A DNA stretch of 64,000 nucleotides from Enterobacteriaceae endosymbiont of Macroplea appendiculata (GTDB lineage: Bacteria; Pseudomonadota; Gammaproteobacteria; Enterobacterales; Enterobacteriaceae): contig NZ_CP046220.1 of assembly GCF_012571605.1 (NCBI RefSeq), positions 402,350 to 466,349 of the forward strand, read 5' to 3'. Under the pieces are notes generated by a model. That model did not search any database. It was not told the DNA's origin and saw only the letters and a list, made by a program, of their open reading frames with translations. Shown here piece by piece: positions 1 through 50,591 of this stretch. Made by a program: the position numbers and the translations under genes. Within the stretch, counting starts at the first letter, position 1, and each line of letters begins with the position of its first letter.

Positions 1-755
1 ATGGAACTTTAGTTTTATATCGTGCTTATTACGCTTTACCTTTATTATTTAATAATAAAGGTAAAGCGACTGGTGCTACATGTGGATTTATTAAAATTTT
101 TAAAAAAATTATTCATATGTACTCAACTAATGACATAATAGTTATTTTTGATGCACCAGGTATAACATTTAGAAAAAAAATATTTACCAAATATAAAATA
201 CAACGTCAAAAAATACCTTATAATTTACGCATGCAAATTACACCTTTAAAAGATATTATTAAAGCCATGGGATATAAAGTAATATCCATTAATAATATTG
301 AAGCAGATGATATTATTGGAACTATTACAACAATATTAACAAAAAAAAAATATGTTGTTTATATTTTTAGTTCTGATAAAGATTTAGCGCAATTAGTATC
401 TAACACAGTATATTTAATAAATCCTATTAAATATAATATTTTAGGACCAAAAGAAATATATCAAAAATATGGTGTTTATCCTAAATTAATGAGTGATTTT
501 TTAGCTTTATGCGGTGATAAAACTGATAATATTCCTGGTATACCAGGAATAGGTATAAAAACAAGCCAATTATTATTAAATAATTTCGGTAGTATTAAAT
601 ATATTTATAGTAAAATATATAATCCCAATTATATGAATAATACAAAAATGCAAAATCTCAAATTAAAATTAATAATGTATCAAAAAGAAGTATTTTTATA
701 TCATAAATTAACAACTATTAATACTAATATTAATTTACAAGGCTATTATCCATAA
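1..755 (+). CDS. polA: DNA polymerase I, 5'-3' exonuclease domain only (5' end outside window)
   Basis: The frame is open from base 3 (GTLVLYRAYYALP...), so the gene begins to the left of the window; the first internal ATG at 117 is not the start. The protein matches the N-terminal flap/5' nuclease of E. coli PolA, which removes RNA primers and cuts flaps. Metal-binding acidic motifs are present: FDAPG, EADDIIGT, SSDKDLAQLV and the helix-hairpin-helix stretch GDKTDNIPGIPGIG. It stops right after the region equivalent to E. coli residues of about 245-250, so the 3'-5' exonuclease-like and polymerase domains are absent and no remnant is seen in the following 364 bp. Buchnera has a similar stand-alone nuclease. 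The truncation is read directly; that it is functional is inferred from the intact active-site motifs. Confidence 0.93.
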   Translation, partial: GTLVLYRAYYALPLLFNNKGKATGATCGFIKIFKKIIHMYSTNDIIVIFDAPGITFRKKIFTKYKIQRQKIPYNLRMQITPLKDIIKAMGYKVISINNIEADDIIGTITTILTKKKYVVYIFSSDKDLAQLVSNTVYLINPIKYNILGPKEIYQKYGVYPKLMSDFLALCGDKTDNIPGIPGIGIKTSQLLLNNFGSIKYIYSKIYNPNYMNNTKMQNLKLKLIMYQKEVFLYHKLTTINTNINLQGYYP

Positions 756-5332: not shown

Positions 5333-5542
5333 TTAAAATTGAAGATTCTTAAATCTTTTCTTAAAAAGTTCGACTCGTCCCTTAATGTCAATAATTTTTT
5401 GTTTTCCTGTATAAAATGGATGACACATATTACAAACATCTAAATGTAATTTTTTATTTAGAGTTGATTTAGTATGAATAATATTACTACAAGAACATTG
5501 TGCAATAATATCATGATATTGAGGATGAATATTTTGTTTCAT
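5333..5542 (-). CDS. rpmE: 50S ribosomal protein L31 (zinc form)
   Basis: 69 residues (E. coli 70), starting [12 protein letters not shown]. The four zinc-binding cysteines are present as C16/C18 (CSCSN) and C37/C40 (CNMC), so this is the zinc-containing L31 type rather than the YkgM-like paralogue. The GGRVDRFNKRF-type ending is kept as [10 protein letters not shown]. It is divergent from priA, the same arrangement as in E. coli. Confidence 0.96.
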
Positions 5543-5627: not shown

Positions 5628-7778
5628 ATGAAAATTATTCAAGTAGTTTTTAATAGTGTTAAATTATATAAACCATATCATTATTTGTTAACTGATAGTG
5701 TTATAGTAAATATTGGTTGTAGAGTAATAGTACCTATCAAAAATAAAAAATATATAGGAATAGTAATATATAATGATAATAAAACTAATTTTGATATAAA
5801 TAAATTAAAATATATTGATCAAGTTATAGATAAAAAATCATTATTTAATAAAAATATTTGGAAATTAGCAAAACAAATTTCTTTATATTATCAATATTCT
5901 TTTGGTAAAATTTTATTTAAAATATTAAATTATTTAACAGTTACTAATGTAGATAATAATATTGCTGATAATAATGTATGGTTATTAAACCATAAAATCG
6001 TAACTCCTGAATTAATACAATCATTAAAAAATAATAAACAAAAATTTGTACTTATTTTATTACAAAAACAACATATATTTTATAATCAAAGTATATATTA
6101 TGGATTAAATAATCGTATTATGTTTGCTTTAGAAAAAAAAGGATGGTGTTTTTTACAGAAAACCAATATACATTTACATTATATACAAAAAAATAATATA
6201 TTTAAAGAACAAAATAAAAAATATGTACATTATACAAAAAGTTATACTTTCAATATATGGACATTAAATAGTAGTTTACTATATTTTAATGAAATAATAT
6301 TATATATGTCATATATTAAAAATATTTTATTATATAAAAAACAAATATTAGTTATTGTACCGAAAAAAAACTATATTTTTAATATATATAAATATTTTAT
6401 GAAAATATTTAATGTAAATGTATGTTTATTTTATTCAACATTACCTACTAAACAAAAAAAAAACATATTATATAATATTAAACAGGGTAATAAAGCAATT
6501 ATAATAGCTACTCCATCATCTATTTTTATAAAATTTTATCAATTAGGATTAATAATTCTTACAGAAGAACATGAATATACTTATAAACAAATGTATAATT
6601 GTAAATATAATTTTAAACATATAGCAATATTCAGAGCCAGAATAGAAAATATTCCCATTTGTTTATGTTCTAAAACATTCTGTTTAGAAACTATATATAA
6701 TATAAATAATGGCAAATATAAAGTTTTATATAAAATTAATAATATTTATGATAATTTTTTAGTTAATATTATTAATCTTGAAAATACAATTGTAAAACAT
6801 GGTATTTCTAAAAAATTATTAAATATTATATACATGCATATTCAAAAAAGAGAACAAATTATATTATATTGTACTCATCAAGGATATGCACAAACAGTAT
6901 TATGTAATATATGCAAACAAACTATTAAATGTACAATATGCTGTAATAATTATATTTTTTATAAAAAAAAATATCAATTATATTGTAAAATTTGTAAATA
7001 TACTATTAAAATGTTTAATATATGCCCTTATTGTCACACATCATATTATTTAGTTCCCATAGGTTCCGGTATAGAACAAATTACTGAATTTTTAAAAAGT
7101 ATATTCCCTAAAACATATGTATTATGTATTACTGAATACAATTTAATTAAACAGGATACATTAGTTATTTACAATAAACCTATGATTATTATCACGTCTA
7201 AAATATTATATAAACGATATTTTTATTTTACAAATAATACATTATTATTATTTTTACAGACTGATTATATTTTTTTTTCTAATCATTTTCGTACTACAGA
7301 ATATTTTTTTCAATATTTATTTAATATTTTAAATAATCATTTTATTAAAAATATTAATAAAACTATTATTTTACAAACAAATTATTATCATCATATCTTT
7401 TTTTATATTATGCTGAATAAAAATAAATATTTTTATTTAACAAAAATGCTTTTACAAGAAAGAAAGACTATGTTATTACCACCGTATAGTTATCAAATTA
7501 TTATTATTTTTGAAACATGTAAAAAAAATATTTTATCAAATTATATCTTAACATTAATAAAAAATTTTGTATGTTTTACTAAAAATGATAAAAATTTTTT
7601 AATTATTGGACCTATTAATATACAAAAAAATTATAAAAAAATATTTTGCAAAAAAATAATTTTACAACACACAAGTAAAACACAATTAAAAAAAATTAAG
7701 CAAAATATTTTACTTGTAACTCAAAAAATAAAATATTTTAATTTTATTAAAATAATTATTGATGTAGATCCCATTTAA
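5628..7778 (+). CDS. priA: Primosomal protein PriA, helicase motifs degenerate
   Basis: 716 residues (E. coli 732), one uninterrupted frame. In enterics PriA recognises stalled forks and D-loops and reloads DnaB. The N-terminal fork-binding domain and the C-terminal block (LPPYSYQIII...IIDVDPI) align along their length. The eight zinc ligands are intact (C426, C429, C435, C438, C453, C456, C466, C469). The helicase core has decayed: Walker A GVTGSGKTE is replaced by TLNSSLLYFNE (211-221 region), DEEH by TEEH (312-315), GSATPALET by CSKTFCLET, the motif V region GTQMLAKGHHF by TSKILYKRYFY, and the arginine-rich motif VI (QVAGRAGR) by an unrelated sequence. ATP-driven unwinding is therefore unlikely; a DNA-binding or scaffold role is inferred. 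Divergent from rpmE and 36 bp before mnmG. Confidence 0.9.
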   Translation: MKIIQVVFNSVKLYKPYHYLLTDSVIVNIGCRVIVPIKNKKYIGIVIYNDNKTNFDINKLKYIDQVIDKKSLFNKNIWKLAKQISLYYQYSFGKILFKILNYLTVTNVDNNIADNNVWLLNHKIVTPELIQSLKNNKQKFVLILLQKQHIFYNQSIYYGLNNRIMFALEKKGWCFLQKTNIHLHYIQKNNIFKEQNKKYVHYTKSYTFNIWTLNSSLLYFNEIILYMSYIKNILLYKKQILVIVPKKNYIFNIYKYFMKIFNVNVCLFYSTLPTKQKKNILYNIKQGNKAIIIATPSSIFIKFYQLGLIILTEEHEYTYKQMYNCKYNFKHIAIFRARIENIPICLCSKTFCLETIYNINNGKYKVLYKINNIYDNFLVNIINLENTIVKHGISKKLLNIIYMHIQKREQIILYCTHQGYAQTVLCNICKQTIKCTICCNNYIFYKKKYQLYCKICKYTIKMFNICPYCHTSYYLVPIGSGIEQITEFLKSIFPKTYVLCITEYNLIKQDTLVIYNKPMIIITSKILYKRYFYFTNNTLLLFLQTDYIFFSNHFRTTEYFFQYLFNILNNHFIKNINKTIILQTNYYHHIFFYIMLNKNKYFYLTKMLLQERKTMLLPPYSYQIIIIFETCKKNILSNYILTLIKNFVCFTKNDKNFLIIGPINIQKNYKKIFCKKIILQHTSKTQLKKIKQNILLVTQKIKYFNFIKIIIDVDPI

Positions 7779-19513: not shown

Positions 19514-21376
19514 CTATAAATTTTTAATACTATGCAATAACAATTTTTTCCTAATATTAGAATAACGTTTTATCTTTTGTTGCAATGTTTGAAAAAAGAT
19601 ATTGTAAGGACTAAAAATATATATTTTTTTTTTAGCTCTAGTTATAGCAGTATAAATTAATTCTCTATTTAATATAGAAGTAAATTTATTTGGTAAAATT
19701 AATGCAACATGATTAAATTCTGATCCTTGTGCTTTGTGTATAGTAATTGCATAAGATATTTCGTGCTCAGGTAACTCATTAATATTAATAAATTTATATT
19801 TATGATATGGTAATTGAAATATTATTTCAAGTTTTTTTTTTTTTTTATTCCATATCGTTATACCTATATCACCATTAAATAAATTTAATAAATGATTATT
19901 TTTAGTAATGATGATAGGTTTTCCTGGATACCACATTGATTTCATATAATATAAACTATGTTCTTGTTTAGAAAATATATTATCTAATTTATTATTAATT
20001 ATACTAGTTCCGAATAAACTATTTTTAATAGCACATAAAATCTGATAATTTTTTAAATTATGAAAATAATTATCAATATTTTGTATGTCATTATAGTGTT
20101 TAATATAACAAAAATATTGTTTAAAATATATAATATGATTTTGAATCATATTATTATATGTTTCAATGTTATTGATATTAATATATTGGACGTCAAGATA
20201 TTTATTAGTTAAAAAAATATCTTGTATATCTTTTATACGTTTTTTTTTAATAGATAGAGCTAATTTGTGTATACCTGAAGAATGTTTATAACGATAATTT
20301 TTTGTTAATGTATTAATACAATTACGAATATAACATGTTGTATTATTTTTGCTAGTCTTTATAGTAATCAATATAGTTGTTAAAAAATGATTATAAGCTT
20401 TAGTTATATTAAATTTTTTAAAATAACATATATCCTGTAATAAATAACCAGTATTTATTGGAGACAACTGATATTCATCTCCTAACAAAACTAAAGAACT
20501 ATTTTTAGGTAGGCTATCTAAAATAATCGACATTAAATGTAAATCAATCATAGATGCTTCATCAACAATTAATAATTGTGTATTTAATTGATTTTGTTGA
20601 TTAAATATAGTGGTTTTTTTATATATATTAATTTTAAAAAAATTATGTATGGTTGTAGCACTATGTGGTATTTGTTTAGCTTCTTCTGGAGTTATAACTG
20701 ATATGGGTAATAAACTAAAAAACATATTTAATGATTCTGTTATTCTATTAGCAGCTTTACCTGTAAAGGCAATAACATTGATTATAATATTTTTTTTAAT
20801 TTTTATAAAAGACAAAATAATTTTTGCTATAATGGTAGTTTTACCTGTACCCGGGGAACCTGTAATAATACTAATTCTATGCATTAAAGCTGTTATAATA
20901 GCTATTTTTTGCTGCATATTATCAATATCATAAAATATATTATTCAGATGATTTTTAATTTGTGTAATGTATTGCACACAATATTTATTGTTTAAAAAAT
21001 GATTAATAATATTATTTTCTAATTTCCATATTCTATACATATAAAAACATTTATTTTCTAAGATGAAAGGTGTGATTTGTATTCCTTTACCATCACTAAC
21101 AATATATGTATATGATAATAATTTTTTTTCCCAATTAATATTGTTAGAAAAAAATTTATTAATTTTATTTAATAAAGTTTTATTATCATGAAAAATTTTT
21201 TTTGGGTTTAATTGTGATATTGGTAAACATATATGACCATCTCGTATAAATTTACTTAAATACGATACAGCAAACATTAATTCTGGTTGTGTATGACTTA
21301 TTAAAATATTTGCAAATTGTAAATCAATTTCTTGAAATAATTTACTTTGATTTAATAATTTTAAGAAACGATACAT
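19514..21376 (-). CDS. recD: Exodeoxyribonuclease V, subunit RecD
   Basis: 620 residues (E. coli 608). RecD is the fast 5'-3' helicase motor of RecBCD. Walker A GSPGTGKTT is at 173-181, Walker B LLIVDEASMID follows, and the C-terminal motifs ITIHKAQGSEF and LIYTAITRAKKK (arginine finger) are complete, so the motor looks active. The middle (about 340-450) has diverged and is very Asn/Lys/Ile rich. Last gene of recC-recB-recD; 24 bp separate it from recB. Confidence 0.96.
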   Translation of the reverse strand: MYRFLKLLNQSKLFQEIDLQFANILISHTQPELMFAVSYLSKFIRDGHICLPISQLNPKKIFHDNKTLLNKINKFFSNNINWEKKLLSYTYIVSDGKGIQITPFILENKCFYMYRIWKLENNIINHFLNNKYCVQYITQIKNHLNNIFYDIDNMQQKIAIITALMHRISIITGSPGTGKTTIIAKIILSFIKIKKNIIINVIAFTGKAANRITESLNMFFSLLPISVITPEEAKQIPHSATTIHNFFKINIYKKTTIFNQQNQLNTQLLIVDEASMIDLHLMSIILDSLPKNSSLVLLGDEYQLSPINTGYLLQDICYFKKFNITKAYNHFLTTILITIKTSKNNTTCYIRNCINTLTKNYRYKHSSGIHKLALSIKKKRIKDIQDIFLTNKYLDVQYININNIETYNNMIQNHIIYFKQYFCYIKHYNDIQNIDNYFHNLKNYQILCAIKNSLFGTSIINNKLDNIFSKQEHSLYYMKSMWYPGKPIIITKNNHLLNLFNGDIGITIWNKKKKKLEIIFQLPYHKYKFININELPEHEISYAITIHKAQGSEFNHVALILPNKFTSILNRELIYTAITRAKKKIYIFSPYNIFFQTLQQKIKRYSNIRKKLLLHSIKNL

Positions 21377-21400: not shown

Positions 21401-24400
21401 TTAATTAAATAATAAATCTAATTTTTGGATGAGTTCTACTGATGGTTTATGCAACCAAATACCATGTTTATTTTTCATATTATTATTTATTCCTCGTAGA
21501 TATAAATAAATTACAGCACCAAAATGTTTACTATAATTATAGTTATACATGTTATTTTTTAAATATTTGTGTAAAGCTAATGTATACAATTGATATTGTA
21601 TGTCATAACGATTCCTACATATATCAGTTTCTATATTTTTATAATTATAGTAATTAATATTATAACCTAACCAGGTAGTTTTATAATCAATAATATAATA
21701 TTTATCTTGCCATATACATACTAAATCCAGTATACCATTTAAAAATCCTTTAAAGTCTGGAAAACATATTGTTGATAGATTTGAAGAAATAATATCATAT
21801 TTTTTAATAATATCATTAAATTGTATATCATAAATATTATTTTTTATTGTACAATAGAATTCAAATTCTACTTGTTTGTGTTCTTTTACAATTTGTTTTA
21901 ATATAATTTTCTGGGGTCCTAATGGTGTATTAATTATATTATTTATCCAATTAGTTAACATTTTATGCCAAGAAATGTGAATATTATTTTTAAATAATTC
22001 TTTCTTAATAATATCATGAATATTACTATATTTTATAGTAACTTTTTCTAAAATTTTATGCATAAATATACCAATCTTTTTACCTACTAAAAAATTATGT
22101 TGTGTTTTTTTAATATATTTTTTTTGTGTTTGTAAAAAATAGAATGTATCAATAGGTTTTATATAAATTTTATTTTTATATTGTATTTGTTTTATTTTAG
22201 TAAAATTCATGATCTTTATAGTATTAAATTTATTTAAATTATTTTTTTGTTCTAAAACATCATATTGATATATTAAAATATGAGGTTTACTAATTTTATT
22301 AACTATAAACATCTTATAATTTAAGATAACTATTTTAATATCATTAGTGATTAATTGTTTTATATTGTTATATAAAATATTTTTATCATTATTTTTATTT
22401 TTTAATAAATACTGTAAAGAATTAAAATATTTTATATATTTATGATATTTATTATATTGATAAAACTGTATATTAGCTAAACCAATATTACAAGTAAAAA
22501 TAGATCTAGTAATAGATACATACAATAATCTTAAATTTTCTGATAGTGATTCTTGTAAAGCATATTGAATATTTTCTTGATTTTTATGAAAATCAATGTT
22601 TTTTTTATAAGTAATAGGATCATGATAAACAATAACTTCAGAATTCATTACATCAATAAAATTACAAACAATAAAAGGCAACCATACAATATTAAATTGT
22701 AAACCTTTAGATTGATGAATAGTCATAATTCTTATATGATTATTTTCATCATATTGTTTAGGTAAACATACTATATTTTTAGAATTTGGATATATAATTT
22801 GTTTTGTTATCCATTGAATTAAAATTTTTATATGAGTAGTTTTTTTAAATTTTGTTTGTATATATTCCCCTATAAATAATATATTTTTAATTTGTTGTTC
22901 ATTATATAAGCAAATAATATTAATTTTTTTTAAAATATTTTCCTTGAGAAAAAAATATTTTAACATATATAAAATACCTTTTTGTTGCCACATTTCTTTA
23001 TATATAGAAAATTGTCGCATAATTTTTAATAAAAAATTATTTTTATTATTCACATCGAAATTTTGTAATGACGTTGTAAATAAGGAATGATTTAATATAT
23101 GCATAACAGATTTTATATCATATGGTTCTGCAATAGCTTTTAAAAGTAAAACTAGTTCTTTAGCTTCTATATTTTGAAAAATATTATTTTGTTCAGATAA
23201 ATATATAGATAATATATTAAATTTTATTAGTTCCTTTTGTATAATATATGCTTCATATTTATTACGTACTATGATTACAATATCAGTTATATGAATTTTT
23301 CTTTTTTTTTTATTTAAAATAATATAATTATCATGTAATAAAGTTGTATAGATATTTTCAGCACAGATATATGCAATTTTTTGTTTGAAACACATATTAT
23401 TATATTCATGTAAATCAAACCAAAATGTGATACCTGGTTGTATCTTATCATTTATTATTAAATTATAATTATATTTTTCCTGTGCATATTTAAGAGGTTG
23501 AAAATGTATGTTTTTAAGTAAAAAAGGATTAGATCTATTCATAAATAAATTATTAATACTATTAGTCATAGTACTTGATGAACGCCAATTATATTGTAAT
23601 GTATAACAATACTGGATTTTTTGTTTAGCTCGTAAATATGTAAATACATCAGCATTTCTAAATGCATAAATAGATTGTTTAGGATCGCCAATATAAATTA
23701 TTAAACTATTATGTATATTATTTAAATAAATTGTTTGAAAAATATTATATTGTTCTATACTAGTATCTTGAAATTCATCTAATAAAACAACAGGATATTG
23801 TTTTTGAATATCTTGGGCAATTGATATGCCTAAAGTACTATTTAAACGTTTTAACAAAATATTTAGTAAATCATCAAAACTAATTTTTTTTGTTTTTGTT
23901 TTTTTAATTTTGAGAAAATTATATACATATTTTACTACTTGAAATAAAATTAAATGTTTTAAACTTACTATTTTATTTAAAAAAACATCTATTTTTGTAA
24001 ATAAAATATGTTTCGGAGGATATTTAATACTATGTAAAATTAAGTTTTTTTGTGAAAATTTTTTTAATTTTATAGGGTAACTATTATCTAATGTATTTGT
24101 AATAGTCCATATATTAATTTCTGTAATCCAGTTCATTAATGAACGTTTATTATATAAATATTTATTTATATCACTATCATGTATAATATGTAATATATTT
24201 TTATAATATAATTGCCATGTTTTTTTTATAATATTAATATAATTAATATTTTTTTGAAATTGTTGAGTAAAATTAACATTATGTATATTAAATTTAATAT
24301 TTGAATTTTTATAATGAAAAAAAAATGGTAATATAGATTGTAATAAGTTTTTTGGTGTTTGGAATTTTTGAAAAAATATTTTTACAATATGCATGGGTAA

Positions 24401-24934
24401 AGACTGAATATGTTCGTTCCAAAATTGTGTAATAGCTTGATTAATCCAATATAATTCTAATTCATTATTCATAATAGTAATTACATTATGTGTAATATCA
24501 TAACTTTTAAAATTTAAAATTTTTTGACAAAATGAATGAATTGTATAAATAGATGCTTTATGTATATTTTTAGTTGCTTGTAATAAAATTTTTTGAGCTT
24601 GTATTAAATCTTTAATTTCTGATAAAAGTATATTAATCATTTGATACTTACTTGACCTATTAATGCAAGCACGTAATAAAATTTGTATACTATGAACAAT
24701 TTTTTTATATAAATCACAAGCAGCTATTTCAGTAAAAGTTACGACTAAAATGTTTTGTACAGTTAAAGGTATAGAATATAGTTTTGGTTTATATAAACCT
24801 AATAACAATCTTAAATAAACAATGATAATTGTAAATGTTTTACCTGTTCCAGCAGATGCTTCGATTAAATATTGACCTTGTAAATGTATTTTATATGGAT
24901 TAAATTCTTGAGTTAATAATATCGGTAATTTCAT
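21401..24934 (-). CDS. recB: Exodeoxyribonuclease V, subunit RecB (helicase-nuclease)
   Basis: 1177 residues (E. coli 1180). RecB carries the 3'-5' helicase and the single nuclease site of RecBCD and loads RecA after Chi. All SF1 motifs are visible: EASAGTGKT (25-33), VTFTEIAA, LLDEFQDTS, IGDPKQSIYAFRNAD, YNWRSS, IMTIHQSKGLQF and LLYVSITRS. The C-terminal nuclease is also intact, with the conserved histidine in IFMHKILE, then GILDLV and YYIIDYKT giving the Asp/Asp-x-Lys site. Order recC-recB-recD; E. coli has the protease gene ptrA between recC and recB, lost here (17-bp gap). Confidence 0.97.
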   Translation of the reverse strand: MKLPILLTQEFNPYKIHLQGQYLIEASAGTGKTFTIIIVYLRLLLGLYKPKLYSIPLTVQNILVVTFTEIAACDLYKKIVHSIQILLRACINRSSKYQMINILLSEIKDLIQAQKILLQATKNIHKASIYTIHSFCQKILNFKSYDITHNVITIMNNELELYWINQAITQFWNEHIQSLPMHIVKIFFQKFQTPKNLLQSILPFFFHYKNSNIKFNIHNVNFTQQFQKNINYINIIKKTWQLYYKNILHIIHDSDINKYLYNKRSLMNWITEINIWTITNTLDNSYPIKLKKFSQKNLILHSIKYPPKHILFTKIDVFLNKIVSLKHLILFQVVKYVYNFLKIKKTKTKKISFDDLLNILLKRLNSTLGISIAQDIQKQYPVVLLDEFQDTSIEQYNIFQTIYLNNIHNSLIIYIGDPKQSIYAFRNADVFTYLRAKQKIQYCYTLQYNWRSSSTMTNSINNLFMNRSNPFLLKNIHFQPLKYAQEKYNYNLIINDKIQPGITFWFDLHEYNNMCFKQKIAYICAENIYTTLLHDNYIILNKKKRKIHITDIVIIVRNKYEAYIIQKELIKFNILSIYLSEQNNIFQNIEAKELVLLLKAIAEPYDIKSVMHILNHSLFTTSLQNFDVNNKNNFLLKIMRQFSIYKEMWQQKGILYMLKYFFLKENILKKINIICLYNEQQIKNILFIGEYIQTKFKKTTHIKILIQWITKQIIYPNSKNIVCLPKQYDENNHIRIMTIHQSKGLQFNIVWLPFIVCNFIDVMNSEVIVYHDPITYKKNIDFHKNQENIQYALQESLSENLRLLYVSITRSIFTCNIGLANIQFYQYNKYHKYIKYFNSLQYLLKNKNNDKNILYNNIKQLITNDIKIVILNYKMFIVNKISKPHILIYQYDVLEQKNNLNKFNTIKIMNFTKIKQIQYKNKIYIKPIDTFYFLQTQKKYIKKTQHNFLVGKKIGIFMHKILEKVTIKYSNIHDIIKKELFKNNIHISWHKMLTNWINNIINTPLGPQKIILKQIVKEHKQVEFEFYCTIKNNIYDIQFNDIIKKYDIISSNLSTICFPDFKGFLNGILDLVCIWQDKYYIIDYKTTWLGYNINYYNYKNIETDICRNRYDIQYQLYTLALHKYLKNNMYNYNYSKHFGAVIYLYLRGINNNMKNKHGIWLHKPSVELIQKLDLLFN

Positions 24935-24951
24935 AATTATATTAAATAATT

Positions 24952-27900
24952 TTATTGTATTTTAAAACATAATATATCTAATAACCATGTTATTATAATG
25001 TTTTGTATATCTAAAAATTTTTTTGGTTGTATATCAAAATTTATTTTTTGAAAATATAAATCATTTTTTTCACTAAAAAAATTTTTTTCCCAATAATAAA
25101 AAAATTTTTTTTTAGCTTGTTTTTGCATAATACTACTATAATCAATACCATTAATATTGGTATTATAACAAACATTTATCCAAGACCAAGAACTTCTCAT
25201 AGGTAAAATTATTGGATTATTTATTCCTATAATATATCCTTTAATATATTTATTTAATAAATTTAATGCAGTATTATAAGGTATATATCTAAAATTATAT
25301 TGAGTATCTTTAAAACCTATAATTTTAGCACTATGTATATTACTATCACACACACATAATATTAAATACTTAATCCAAAAAGCCATAATAGATTTAATAT
25401 CTAAATATTTTGGTTGAAATTCTAGTAATGTATTATTACTATATAAGTATTTTATTTTACCATATAATATTATATTATCAAAATTTAAATGAACTTTTTT
25501 GCTTATAATATTATGTTGTTGATAATTATAATATTTATGATATATAACAGATATTTTGTGTACAGTTTCTAACCACCATATTTTATTATAATTACCAAAA
25601 GGCAATAAACCATGATTTAAGTAATATTTATATAATGTCATAATACTACCATGATTAATAAATGTGTTAAATATATCTTTATTAATTATATATTTTTGTA
25701 AATAATTAATATTAAAAGATTGTATCTGAAAATCTTTTCTATCATTAATATTTTGTAAATATATTCCTAATCTTTGATTAAAAAAACCTTTTAGAGGATG
25801 TCGCCAAAAATTAATGAAATTACAAATACTAATATTATTTATGTCAAGTATTTTAAATTTTAAATTTAACTTATTTGTCTGTATAATATTCTTTGTAATA
25901 TTAAATTTTTTATATGATATATAATGTATAATATTATTATGTAAAACAAAATTATTATGTATATATGTAATTAATGTTTGTATGGTATTAGAGATATTTT
26001 GATGTTCTAAAGGTTGTGACACGTAACTAATATATAATTTGTGTTTAGTGAGTGTTAATAATTTTAAAAATATATATTGATCTATATTTTTATTACTATT
26101 TTGTTTTAAATAATTATTTAATAAGCTGAATTGAATATCATATGTTTTACGGGGGAAATATTCTTCATTCATACCTATTAAAATATATATTTTAGTTGGT
26201 TTGATAAAAAAATTATTTAAATTACAAAAATTAATTTTATTAATTCTAAAAGATTTATAATCTTGTGTTTTAAATATATAATTAATAAGATTTATAATCA
26301 TAAAAATGTCAACTTTATTTTTATATTGAGCATATATACCATATTGTATACATTTTTGGATTTTATTAAAAAACTTATATATTTGTATATTATAAAAAGT
26401 TTTTTTCGGAAAAAAATCTAAATATAATTTTTGTAAAATATTAATCCATTTTGTTAAAAAATATGATTTTTGTAAAAATTTTTTCCATTTATATAAAAGA
26501 AATAATAATTTTGTAAATTTTCCTAATATAATACCAGTAATATTATCTACACCAGGATATGGAAGAATATTATTCCATATTTGTTGTGTATTACCTAAAA
26601 CATATCCAACATATAAACGTTGTAATGCTAAAGTCCAAGTATATTGATTTTTTAATAAATCAAAATTTTTAATATTACATAAGTTTATATCATATCTAAT
26701 ATCCATATTTTGAATCCAGTAATATAAATATTCTATTTCTGTATCTTTAATATCTAATTTATTTAAAATATATTTATTATTTAATAATAAATATATTTTA
26801 TTAGGAGTAACATTTTGATGCATTAATTGTAATAAATATAAAAATATGCTAATGATATTTATATTTAGAAAATTAAATGGAGTTTTAATATTAATAGGCA
26901 TATTTTTTTCACAAAATAAATCTTGAATTAATGGTGCATATAATTCTAACTTAGGAGATATAACCATAATATCATGAAGTAAATAATTATTATGTTTATT
27001 CAAAATATTCATAATATTCTGATATAACAACGTTATTTCAGTTTGAATACTTTCACAAGAAAAAATCTGTATAGAAGTATCTATTTTCTGTATTTTTTTT
27101 TTACATGCTGTATTATCAGTAACATACAAAATATCTTTTTGTATTGTAGTTAATAAATTATGATCCTCTATAGATACAAAAGCATCAATATCTCTTGCAG
27201 AAATATCTAAGTATATATGTTGCATATATAATTCATATTTACCAAATTTATTTAATAAACTATTATCATTTAAGAAATTCCAATAATATTGGCATGGATG
27301 ATAACAAAATAAATGTATTTCAAGTTGTTTTTCAAATAATTGTAATATTTTTATATAAATATAAGGAATATTATATATTTCAAAAATAAATATTTTAGTA
27401 TCTAGTAAATCTAATTTACATGTATTTTGTGTTTTTAAAAAATAATATAAATTTCCATAATGCCATAGCTTTGTTTGTAATGTGTTTATATAATATTGCG
27501 TAATACTGTACCACAATTTAGATTGCCAAATTTCATTTTTATTATTATGAGTATAATTTGGTTGCTCCCAGAGAATTAATAATTCTGGTTTATATTTTTG
27601 ATATTGATCAAATATATTAGCAATATGTATAGCAATATCCAAATTAGAATATAAATATTTCATTTTATGAAAATATTTTTTTAAAAACAAAAACTCTGGT
27701 AAATGAATTAATTTTGGTATTAAATACATGATAGGCCAAATAATAGAATATTTATTTAAAAAAATATTATTACCTCTGGTTAAGAAAGTAAGAGTTTTTT
27801 TTATAATATCCATTATAAATATATCTATGGTGGAATAACTAATATTGGCATGTATTTTTATACTATTTATTAAATATAATTTGAATTCAGTAATATTATT

Positions 27901-28020
27901 TTTATTATTAATCAATATCTTTTTTGATTTTAATATATTAGTTTTATTACAATTTAAAAGTTGTAATTCTAATATTTTAAATAAAGTGTTCATTTTATTC
28001 GATTTATATATCGTAAACAT
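24952..28020 (-). CDS. recC: Exodeoxyribonuclease V, subunit RecC
   Basis: 1022 residues (E. coli 1122). RecC holds the complex together, splits the duplex and reads Chi. It starts MFTIYKSNKMNTL like E. coli MLRVYHSNRLDVL. The inactive helicase-like fold and the C-terminal dead-nuclease-like domain can be followed by conserved patches such as YNIPYIYIKILQLF, the LGMNEEYFPR-type stretch (IGMNEEYFPRKT), KLYISYVSQ, FWRHPLKGFFNQRL and PFGNYNKIWW. Roughly a hundred residues are missing from internal loops and much has drifted, so whether the Chi sequence is the same as in E. coli cannot be told. Confidence 0.94.
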   Translation of the reverse strand: MFTIYKSNKMNTLFKILELQLLNCNKTNILKSKKILINNKNNITEFKLYLINSIKIHANISYSTIDIFIMDIIKKTLTFLTRGNNIFLNKYSIIWPIMYLIPKLIHLPEFLFLKKYFHKMKYLYSNLDIAIHIANIFDQYQKYKPELLILWEQPNYTHNNKNEIWQSKLWYSITQYYINTLQTKLWHYGNLYYFLKTQNTCKLDLLDTKIFIFEIYNIPYIYIKILQLFEKQLEIHLFCYHPCQYYWNFLNDNSLLNKFGKYELYMQHIYLDISARDIDAFVSIEDHNLLTTIQKDILYVTDNTACKKKIQKIDTSIQIFSCESIQTEITLLYQNIMNILNKHNNYLLHDIMVISPKLELYAPLIQDLFCEKNMPINIKTPFNFLNINIISIFLYLLQLMHQNVTPNKIYLLLNNKYILNKLDIKDTEIEYLYYWIQNMDIRYDINLCNIKNFDLLKNQYTWTLALQRLYVGYVLGNTQQIWNNILPYPGVDNITGIILGKFTKLLFLLYKWKKFLQKSYFLTKWINILQKLYLDFFPKKTFYNIQIYKFFNKIQKCIQYGIYAQYKNKVDIFMIINLINYIFKTQDYKSFRINKINFCNLNNFFIKPTKIYILIGMNEEYFPRKTYDIQFSLLNNYLKQNSNKNIDQYIFLKLLTLTKHKLYISYVSQPLEHQNISNTIQTLITYIHNNFVLHNNIIHYISYKKFNITKNIIQTNKLNLKFKILDINNISICNFINFWRHPLKGFFNQRLGIYLQNINDRKDFQIQSFNINYLQKYIINKDIFNTFINHGSIMTLYKYYLNHGLLPFGNYNKIWWLETVHKISVIYHKYYNYQQHNIISKKVHLNFDNIILYGKIKYLYSNNTLLEFQPKYLDIKSIMAFWIKYLILCVCDSNIHSAKIIGFKDTQYNFRYIPYNTALNLLNKYIKGYIIGINNPIILPMRSSWSWINVCYNTNINGIDYSSIMQKQAKKKFFYYWEKNFFSEKNDLYFQKINFDIQPKKFLDIQNIIITWLLDILCFKIQ

Positions 28021-46994: not shown

Positions 46995-48116
46995 ATGCAA
47001 TATCATATTATTATTAACCGTGAAATTTTAATTAAACCATTACAATATTTAACTAATATTATTCATAATCGTACTACTACAAATATTATACAAAATATTA
47101 TCTTGTATGTACAAGATAATGGGATTATGCTTTTAAAAAGTTCGAATTTAGAAGTAGAAATAGAAATAACTATCTTATTACAAAATTGTCATTATAAAAA
47201 ATATCTTATTGCTATACCAGGAAAAAAATTTTATAATATATGTCGTAGTTTACCTAATAAAACTAACATTAATATGTTATTTAACGATGATAAACAAGTA
47301 CATATTTCTACAACGACATGTAGTTTTATTATATCTACTATGTCTGCAGATAATTTTCCGTATATTACTCCTTGGGTTAGTGAAATCAGTTTTGCTATTA
47401 AGCATATTGTTTTAAAACAATTAATACAATGTACTTTATTTTCTACTGCATTAAATGATATTAGACAATATTTAAATGGTATTTTATTGCATATAGAAAA
47501 AAACATTGTAAATATTGTATCTACAGATGGATATCGTTTATCTTTATGTCATATTAATATGAAAAAATCTTTTAAATCTTATAAAGTTATTATTCCTCGT
47601 AAAAGTATGGTAGAATTATTACGTATACTAAATAATACTAATCAAAATATATATATTAACATAAACACAAATAACATTAGTTTTACTGATCAAAATATAA
47701 AATTTACTTCTAAACTTATTAATAGTATTTATCCAGATTATACACAACTAATTCCTATAAAATTTTTAAAAACTATTATAATAAATAAATTTAATTTTCA
47801 AAATGCATTAACACGTATTTCTATATTAGCAGATGAACATATTAAAGGAGTTACTTTAAATATAAAAAATAAAAAATTAAAATTAATTACTAAAAATATT
47901 AATAATGAAATAGCAGAAGAAACGTTAAACATTGAAGAAGAATATCCGGAATATAAAATTAATATTTCTGTTAATATAAATTATGTGTTAGATGTTATTG
48001 CTGTATTAGATAGTGATAATATAAAAATTTCATTTATTAATGCTCATTCTAGCATTAAAATAGAAGATAATAATAATACAAATAAAATATATTTAATTAT
48101 GCCTATGCAAATTTAA
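46995..48116 (+). CDS. dnaN: DNA polymerase III subunit beta (sliding clamp)
   Basis: 373 residues (E. coli 366). Ring clamp that tethers Pol III. Three similar domains can be followed: the N-terminal REILIKPLQYLTNII, the IPGKKFYNICRSLP helix, LLHIEKNIVNIVSTDGYRLSLC (E. coli VRTVATDGHRLAVC) and IPRKSMVELLRIL. The C-terminal YLIMPMQI keeps the end that forms the partner-binding pocket (E. coli YVVMPMRL). dnaA is missing before it and recF after it; gyrB follows directly. Confidence 0.96.
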   Translation: MQYHIIINREILIKPLQYLTNIIHNRTTTNIIQNIILYVQDNGIMLLKSSNLEVEIEITILLQNCHYKKYLIAIPGKKFYNICRSLPNKTNINMLFNDDKQVHISTTTCSFIISTMSADNFPYITPWVSEISFAIKHIVLKQLIQCTLFSTALNDIRQYLNGILLHIEKNIVNIVSTDGYRLSLCHINMKKSFKSYKVIIPRKSMVELLRILNNTNQNIYININTNNISFTDQNIKFTSKLINSIYPDYTQLIPIKFLKTIIINKFNFQNALTRISILADEHIKGVTLNIKNKKLKLITKNINNEIAEETLNIEEEYPEYKINISVNINYVLDVIAVLDSDNIKISFINAHSSIKIEDNNNTNKIYLIMPMQI

Positions 48117-48131
48117 AGTATATTCTTATAA

Positions 48132-50591
<2,460 letters not shown>

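Follow-up and report, generated by a model that had tools for sequence, protein, structure and literature searches.

The closest described counterpart of the protein reported here is PriA of Deinococcus radiodurans, which naturally lacks ATPase and has been shown to bind forks and to contact DnaB directly (Lopper et al. 2015, PMC4504706). According to the same source, PriAs of the Deinococcus-Thermus group match motifs I and II poorly and have the Walker A lysine replaced by arginine. In Escherichia coli, PriA carrying K230R (priA300) or K230A is ATPase-dead and keeps primosome assembly and some DnaA-independent replication (PMC4631800, PMC7326373, PMC10175261), and one DnaB reloading assay with ATPase-dead PriA plus PriB, DnaT and DnaC has been described (PMC10175261). 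Fork binding swings the cysteine-rich region (CRR), closing a pore on lagging-strand DNA, and the same swing exposes the PriB and DnaT sites (PMC10175261, PMC13377028); the PriB-docking residues on this region are E. coli D438, S481, T482 and H483 (PMC10175261). Here we describe the PriA encoded in a 64,000-nucleotide stretch of DNA (the window; positions 402,350 to 466,349 of contig NZ_CP046220.1) from the Enterobacteriaceae endosymbiont of the reed beetle Macroplea appendiculata. The genome comprises 472,781 bases in two contigs, reported as a chromosome of 466,349 and a plasmid of 6,432 (PMC7289800). Judged from its residues, this PriA has lost the ATP site and the arginine finger and has kept the zinc module together with a large share of the 3'-end-binding and C-terminal domains. 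The frame is open over 716 codons, as a sequence-only reading of the window had stated, and its parts are as follows.

5628..7778, + strand: priA, 716 codons plus stop, a predicted ATPase-dead PriA (pseudohelicase), assigned from the frame, TIGR00595, the E. coli alignment and 24 Donaciinae
5628..5942, + strand: 3'-DNA-binding domain, 76% of family-invariant residues retained (alignment, mean of 24 Donaciinae)
5943..6215, + strand: winged-helix region, the quickest-evolving part between the window and M. mutica symbiont genes, 7% of invariant residues retained (24 Donaciinae)
6216..6713, + strand: helicase domain 1, RecA-like fold predicted, ratio of nonsynonymous to synonymous substitution rates (dN/dS) of 0.069 in the comparison with the M. 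mutica symbiont
6273..6299, + strand: place of motif I (Walker A), reads SLLYFNEII (alignment)
6561..6572, + strand: place of motif II (DEEH), reads TEEH (alignment)
6666..6692, + strand: place of motif III (GSATPALET), reads CSKTFCLET (alignment)
6894..7055, + strand: CRR with zinc cysteines 426, 429, 435, 438, 453, 456, 466 and 469 (alignment)
7323..7346, + strand: place of motif VI (arginine finger, QVAGRAGR), reads NILNNHFI (alignment)
7479..7775, + strand: C-terminal domain (PriA_C), 65% of invariant residues retained (mean of 24 Donaciinae)

Against the PriA equivalog TIGR00595, whose cut-off is 230.35, the frame reaches 243.9 bits; E. coli PriA (8fak_H) matches it over almost the full length (E 1.3e-80, identity about 27%), and the 3'-DNA-binding, RecA-like and C-terminal domains of a full-length PriA are all matched. 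The PriA of the closest named relative, the symbiont of M. mutica (P0002), is at 88%. In structure comparison the predicted fold is that of PriA, and the matches ranking below PriA cover mostly the RecA-like core (190-621). Relative to fork-bound E. coli PriA (8fak), the domain order, the fold and the rpmE neighbour are the same, rpmE being divergent to priA in both genomes, which indicates orthology by position, whereas the catalytic motifs and the PriB-docking residues are lost; the four docking places read I, T, S and Y in the window.

Motif retention was counted in an alignment of 58 PriAs (E. coli, 24 Donaciinae, 11 other intact and 22 other motif-lost ones), to which 30 more intact PriAs were added, with the 177 columns that do not vary among 42 intact PriAs as the reference. 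The 24 Donaciinae and the 22 others make up the ATPase-dead set (n=46), in which L084, L085, L087 and L088 are included by the longer piece only; L089-L091 were excluded from the motif and cysteine counts and inspected separately. The window protein retains 0/7 invariant residues in motif I, 0/7 in VI, 1/6 in IV, 2/8 in Ia, 2/5 in III, 3/10 in V, 1/2 in Ib, 5/8 in II, 3/5 in Ic, 3/5 in IVa and 5/5 in Va. The motif readings given earlier are borne out by the alignment, in which the Walker A place is SLLYFNEII; the accompanying claim of a loss of all helicase motifs holds for motifs I and VI, which are erased, and is overstated as a whole, since motif Va and the EEH of motif II persist. With no residue left of either the Walker A GxGxGKT or the arginine finger QxxGRxGR of active superfamily 2 (SF2) helicases, the protein would belong with PriA pseudohelicases, in which the ATP-hydrolysis residues are gone. 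No other P-loop pattern that could be a displaced Walker A was found in the window protein. All eight zinc cysteines are at the aligned positions, exactly where they had been read, and all eight are kept in 46/46 dead PriAs, which makes chance retention unlikely. Mean retention in the Donaciinae is 0% for motif VI, 9% for I, 22% for IV and 26% for V, and 100% for the zinc cysteines and 91% for Va; in the 22 other dead PriAs it is 5%, 23%, 19% and 25% for the same four motifs, and 100% for the zinc cysteines, 74% for Va, 73% for the 3'-binding domain and 66% for the C-terminal domain. The non-cysteine invariant residues of the CRR are mostly gone (4% left in Donaciinae, 12% in the 22 others). 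Of the winged-helix invariant residues, 53% are left in the 22 others; across Donaciinae pairs 47 to 98 codons of this region could be compared, and no column is invariant in all 24.

Single positions inside the eroded core show their own patterns. The Walker A lysine at E. coli position 230 is kept in 22/22 non-Donaciinae dead PriAs (L067-L088) with the rest of the P-loop gone, and in 13/24 Donaciinae (background lysine frequency 0.128), the window having E; its persistence suggests a second role for that residue. E322 is retained in 21/22 other dead PriAs and 24/24 Donaciinae. Position 336 is His in 41/42 intact PriAs and Asn in 24/24 Donaciinae and 18/22 other dead PriAs, a change that may come from mutation bias, as a few intact small-genome PriAs have Asn too.

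Selection on priA was estimated with a self-written pairwise codon model (GY94 type, F3x4). Between the window and the M. mutica symbiont the whole gene has a dN/dS of 0.155, with a likelihood-ratio test (LRT) value of 86.6 against 1, so the neutral ratio near 1 that would mark a pseudogene is not seen; by domain, the CRR has 0.116 and the winged helix 0.309. Across nine Donaciinae pairs, whole-gene values ranged from 0.093 to 0.155 and those of helicase domain 1 from 0.015 to 0.147, and in the L010/L014 pair the CRR and HL2a reached 0.67-0.68, both being small domains with little power. The frame is open in 24/24 Donaciinae genomes sampled, all of which carry the ATPase-dead form. Sequencing error or a local oddity can therefore be rejected, and the ATPase-dead PriA is not peculiar to the M. 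appendiculata symbiont genome; likewise, a pseudogene in decay is rejected by the unbroken frames together with the LRT. These values point to purifying selection on the gene in the compared reed-beetle symbionts. Its strength is moderate and on par with the recombination neighbours, RecB (0.176) and RecC (0.194) ranking above PriA against the same relative, and it is far off neutral. A PriA that does not unwind thus stands as the best reading of a lost helicase core with retained fold, zinc module and purifying selection, as had been proposed.

The loss extends well beyond reed-beetle symbionts. The PriA cut-off is exceeded in 246/295 family genomes, the low scorers being mostly small genomes, and 30 genomes were taken further, 25 with lowered PriA scores and five intact controls. 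Walker A and motif VI are all lost in 22/25 low-score genomes, and the remaining three (G148, G257, G329; genus g126; L089-L091; 0.3 Mb) carry an in-frame TGA in PriA. In-frame TGA occurs also in their RecA and DnaA, and likewise in a PriB/SSB-type match in two of the three, which suggests that TGA is read as Trp; if so, their PriA frames stay open over 598-616 residues and encode dead proteins that have all eight cysteines. Two of the genera are Buchnera, since PriAs L070-L072 and L086 are near-identical to named records, and Buchnera-type PriAs are 22-34% identical to E. coli PriA. In a second, hand-chosen set of 30 further small or medium genomes the catalytic residues are changed in 9/30 and unchanged in 21/30, the latter including L122 with a masked Walker A and L125 with a broken frame; L126 is a C-terminal piece only, lacking two of the eight cysteine columns. 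Two members of this set are early stages of motor loss: in L117 (1.4 Mb genome, 58% PriA identity with E. coli) motif VI is gone and motif I altered, with motifs II, IV and most others whole, and L118, identical to P0018 from Arsenophonus in Ceratovacuna japonica, reads GSDKT and has an altered motif VI. The Riesia PriA (P0019) is intact. In an RpoB tree (30 genomes, LG+C20), weak ground as a single gene with AT-rich long branches, the distribution of dead and intact PriA requires at least four changes; an intact relative is joined to the g72 pair (support 94/99) and a different intact one to G113 (93/91). In approximately unbiased (AU) tests, Donaciinae and the g72 pair as one clade were rejected (p 0.0002); a clade of all dead PriAs (p 0.057) and one of all but the g72 pair (p 0.128) were not rejected. 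A single ancestral loss of the ATPase is unlikely given the tree, and the ATPase was probably lost more than once in reduced lineages, among them Buchnera, an Arsenophonus and others.

Partners were sought by family searches over the Donaciinae and by whole-genome tblastn with E. coli proteins at E 0.01, both of which strongly diverged small proteins might evade. In the M. appendiculata symbiont genome, tblastn gave no match for DnaA, DnaC, DnaT, PriB, PriC, RecG or RecF, and matched DnaB (68.6%), UvrD (43.9%), RnhA (62%), DnaX, DnaN and GyrB. In the family searches RecA is above cut-off in 24/24 Donaciinae, and DnaA and DnaT have matches in 0/24; PriC is found in 0/24 and in 0/65 genomes overall, with the E. 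coli control detected. PriB is above cut-off in 0/24, with sub-cut-off matches in 23/24, of which the one examined (G000) is taken as SSB; priB is also gone from its E. coli place, because the rpsF and rpsR matches are 78 bases apart, too short a gap for it. No DnaC-type Pfam match is above cut-off in the 24 Donaciinae, and the weak ones are presumably Lon, ClpX and HslU, whose frame lengths they fit. The E. coli PriA-PriB-DnaT-DnaC restart pathway is thus not recovered here, PriB, DnaT and DnaC being undetected, and the analogy with E. coli ATPase-dead mutants is not supported in the form drawn in the sequence-only reading: those mutants assemble the primosome by way of PriB, DnaT and DnaC, and no homologue of these, of PriC or of DnaA could be detected in the genome. 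Present are DnaB, RecA, RecBCD and SSB, the last ending in DDIPF with its tail kept, and P-loops are retained in RecB, RecD, RecA and the UvrD-type helicase, by which a genome-wide decay of P-loops is rejected. Loss of RNase HI enabling R-loop-primed replication is rejected as well, as rnhA is present and adjoins dnaQ. Neighbouring genes of the window that bear on this comparison are as follows.

5333..5542, - strand: rpmE (L31), divergent neighbour of priA (orthology by position)
19514..21376, - strand: recD, P-loop intact (above curated cut-off)
21401..24934, - strand: recB, P-loop EASAGTGKT (above curated cut-off)
24952..28020, - strand: recC, under family cut-offs (family search)

At window 117-755 (+) DNA polymerase I is apparently cut to a 212-residue 5'-3' exonuclease part (PolA 52-249 of 889). 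At window 47013-50588 dnaN adjoins gyrB; in E. coli dnaN lies between dnaA and recF, both of which are unmatched in this genome. The cumulative GC skew over the 164 kb examined has a minimum at window position ~4250, just upstream of priA-mnmG, which is shallow and shows no origin. With E. coli Mfd as the tblastn query, the sole match is PriA itself; in other small genomes (L191-L195, L197, L198, L201, L202) Mfd seems reduced to a C-terminal part, the matches starting at residue 454-476 of 1148 in frames of ~680-720 codons.

We favour, with moderate confidence, the view that this PriA is a selected ATPase-dead pseudohelicase acting as an ATP-independent fork clamp that helps DnaB reloading. 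It would recognise branched DNA such as stalled forks and D-loops from RecBCD/RecA repair, the CRR would close around lagging-strand single-stranded DNA without need of ATP, and PriA would displace or contact SSB and so mark and hold the place for putting DnaB back. The motor could be dispensable because forks that already expose a single-stranded lagging strand need no unwinding. With PriB, PriC, DnaT, DnaC and DnaA undetected, contact with DnaB would have to be direct, as has been suggested for D. radiodurans PriA (PMC4504706), unless DnaB is loaded by another route. The PriB-docking residues were lost in step with priB while all cysteines stayed, so the pore, rather than PriB docking, would explain why the CRR is kept. 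A further proposal, which we regard as doubtful though possible, is that in reed-beetle symbionts, where neither DnaA nor any of the DnaB loaders known from E. coli is detected, the dead PriA is the last initiator: chromosome replication would begin at RecA/RecBCD D-loops or other branched DNA, with PriA clamping the lagging strand and handing it directly to DnaB, no ATP-driven loader being involved.

Several observations weigh against the fork-clamp reading. No known DnaB loader is detected, which leaves the last step unexplained. By dN/dS, PriA is 44th of 50 window genes (0.155; median 0.069), so most of them are under tighter constraint. In E. coli, growth of dnaA rnhA strains (carrying further mutations) on minimal medium is supported by PriA K230R, and that of dnaA recG strains is not (PMC4631800, PMC7326373); the M. 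appendiculata symbiont is the reverse case, keeping rnhA with RecG undetected, and this weakens an easy transfer from E. coli. Among the family genomes, 3/295 have no PriA match and several small ones have weak matches that are perhaps other helicases, and 7/30 genomes show stops or split priA matches, three of these seven being the TGA-bearing ones that are open if TGA is Trp, so that erosion has gone on to breakage in other lineages. Two putative 3'-pocket residues are changed in Macroplea, where D17 is replaced by H and G37 by K.

One alternative is slow decay, in which the ATPase was the first part lost from a PriA that is itself disappearing and the remainder lags. Erosion graded among lineages, the broken PriAs (L084, L085, L087 and L088 in the first set, L125-L127 in the second), the fast rank of PriA in the window and the low identity of the Buchnera type all suit it, but all 24 frames in the genus are open with dN/dS far below 1, helicase domain 1 of the window pair is tighter than the whole gene, the eight cysteines persist in every dead PriA counted and in the three TGA-bearing ones, and there is no excess over two intact PriAs of tiny genomes compared with each other (L063/L064, dN/dS also 0.155); we therefore hold decay to be quite improbable. 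A surviving ATPase with an altered ATP site, so that the protein is still a helicase, would agree with the conserved lysine 230 and E322 of other dead PriAs, yet the window has E for that lysine, T for the Walker B aspartate, no motif VI and no P-loop pattern elsewhere, and this idea is almost certainly wrong.

Two alternatives accept a selected, motorless protein and differ as to its job or cause. A structural or regulatory job without DnaB reloading, namely holding 3' ends, shielding stalled forks from polymerase and nucleases, or handling SSB, fits the retained parts (3'-binding domain, zinc cysteines, C-terminal domain), the failure to detect the E. coli loader chain, the loss of the PriB-docking residues and the preserved SSB tail; it is unlikely in our judgement, the D. 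radiodurans pseudohelicase being one that touches DnaB directly (PMC4504706). It is distinctly unlikely that the motor had become harmful, PriA unwinding causing over-replication after loss of RecG and selection removing the ATPase. RecG has no tblastn match in the genome, E. coli recG mutants are suppressed by inactivation of the PriA helicase (PMC7326373), and RecG occurs in 6/8 examined intact-PriA genomes; but it stands alongside eroded PriA in 3/12 genomes (G028, G113, G170), a count that is incomplete as in the other nine eroded and two intact ones (G080, G218) the Mfd locus was examined and RecG was not sought elsewhere. By these three genomes RecG loss is rejected as a general cause.

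Set beside the known systems, the fork-clamp PriA proposed here resembles that of D. radiodurans in being a natural PriA without ATPase in a genome with no clear priB or dnaT (PMC4504706). It differs in that motifs I and VI are erased entirely and DnaA, DnaC and RecG are undetected too, and fork binding and DnaB contact, demonstrated for D. radiodurans, are only proposed by analogy for the symbiont; given the different phylum, we infer a separate origin. The E. coli K230 mutants have one changed residue and PriB, PriC, DnaT and DnaC present, whereas in the symbiont the catalytic set is gone and the partners are gone or undetected. Buchnera PriAs (P0157, P0158, P0159, and P0121 from Thelaxes suberi) are alike in having lost Walker A and motif VI and kept the eight cysteines, but the Buchnera-linked genera g115 and g116 (six genomes) have DnaT and DnaC-type matches, DnaA above cut-off in 5/6 and RecA in 0/6, the reverse of the Donaciinae partner set. 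In the open-licence PMC literature, no title or abstract start among the matches listed concerns an ATPase-dead PriA in insect symbionts, and the words priA and dnaA are absent from the main texts of the reed-beetle papers PMC7289800 and PMC12508126; replication start without DnaA is called unclear in Blochmannia (PMC4389277). The PriA pseudohelicase as a kind is already known from Deinococcus; what is new is that it occurs across insect symbionts, how far it extends there, and that it persists in genomes in which neither DnaA nor the E. coli loading chain is detected.

In the M. appendiculata symbiont, the sole PriA-pathway protein detected is one whose motor has been stripped and which has nevertheless been retained. 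For reduced genomes in general, 'PriA present' does not equal 'PriA helicase present', and several records are still labelled replication restart helicase. The natural series from intact through partly eroded to dead PriAs is a resource for studying the ATP-free roles of PriA and its DnaB-reloading surfaces. If the dead PriA is indeed the last initiator in reed-beetle symbionts, the repeated motor loss in Buchnera, Arsenophonus and others would be convergent, leaving of PriA nothing but a clamp that reads DNA structure.
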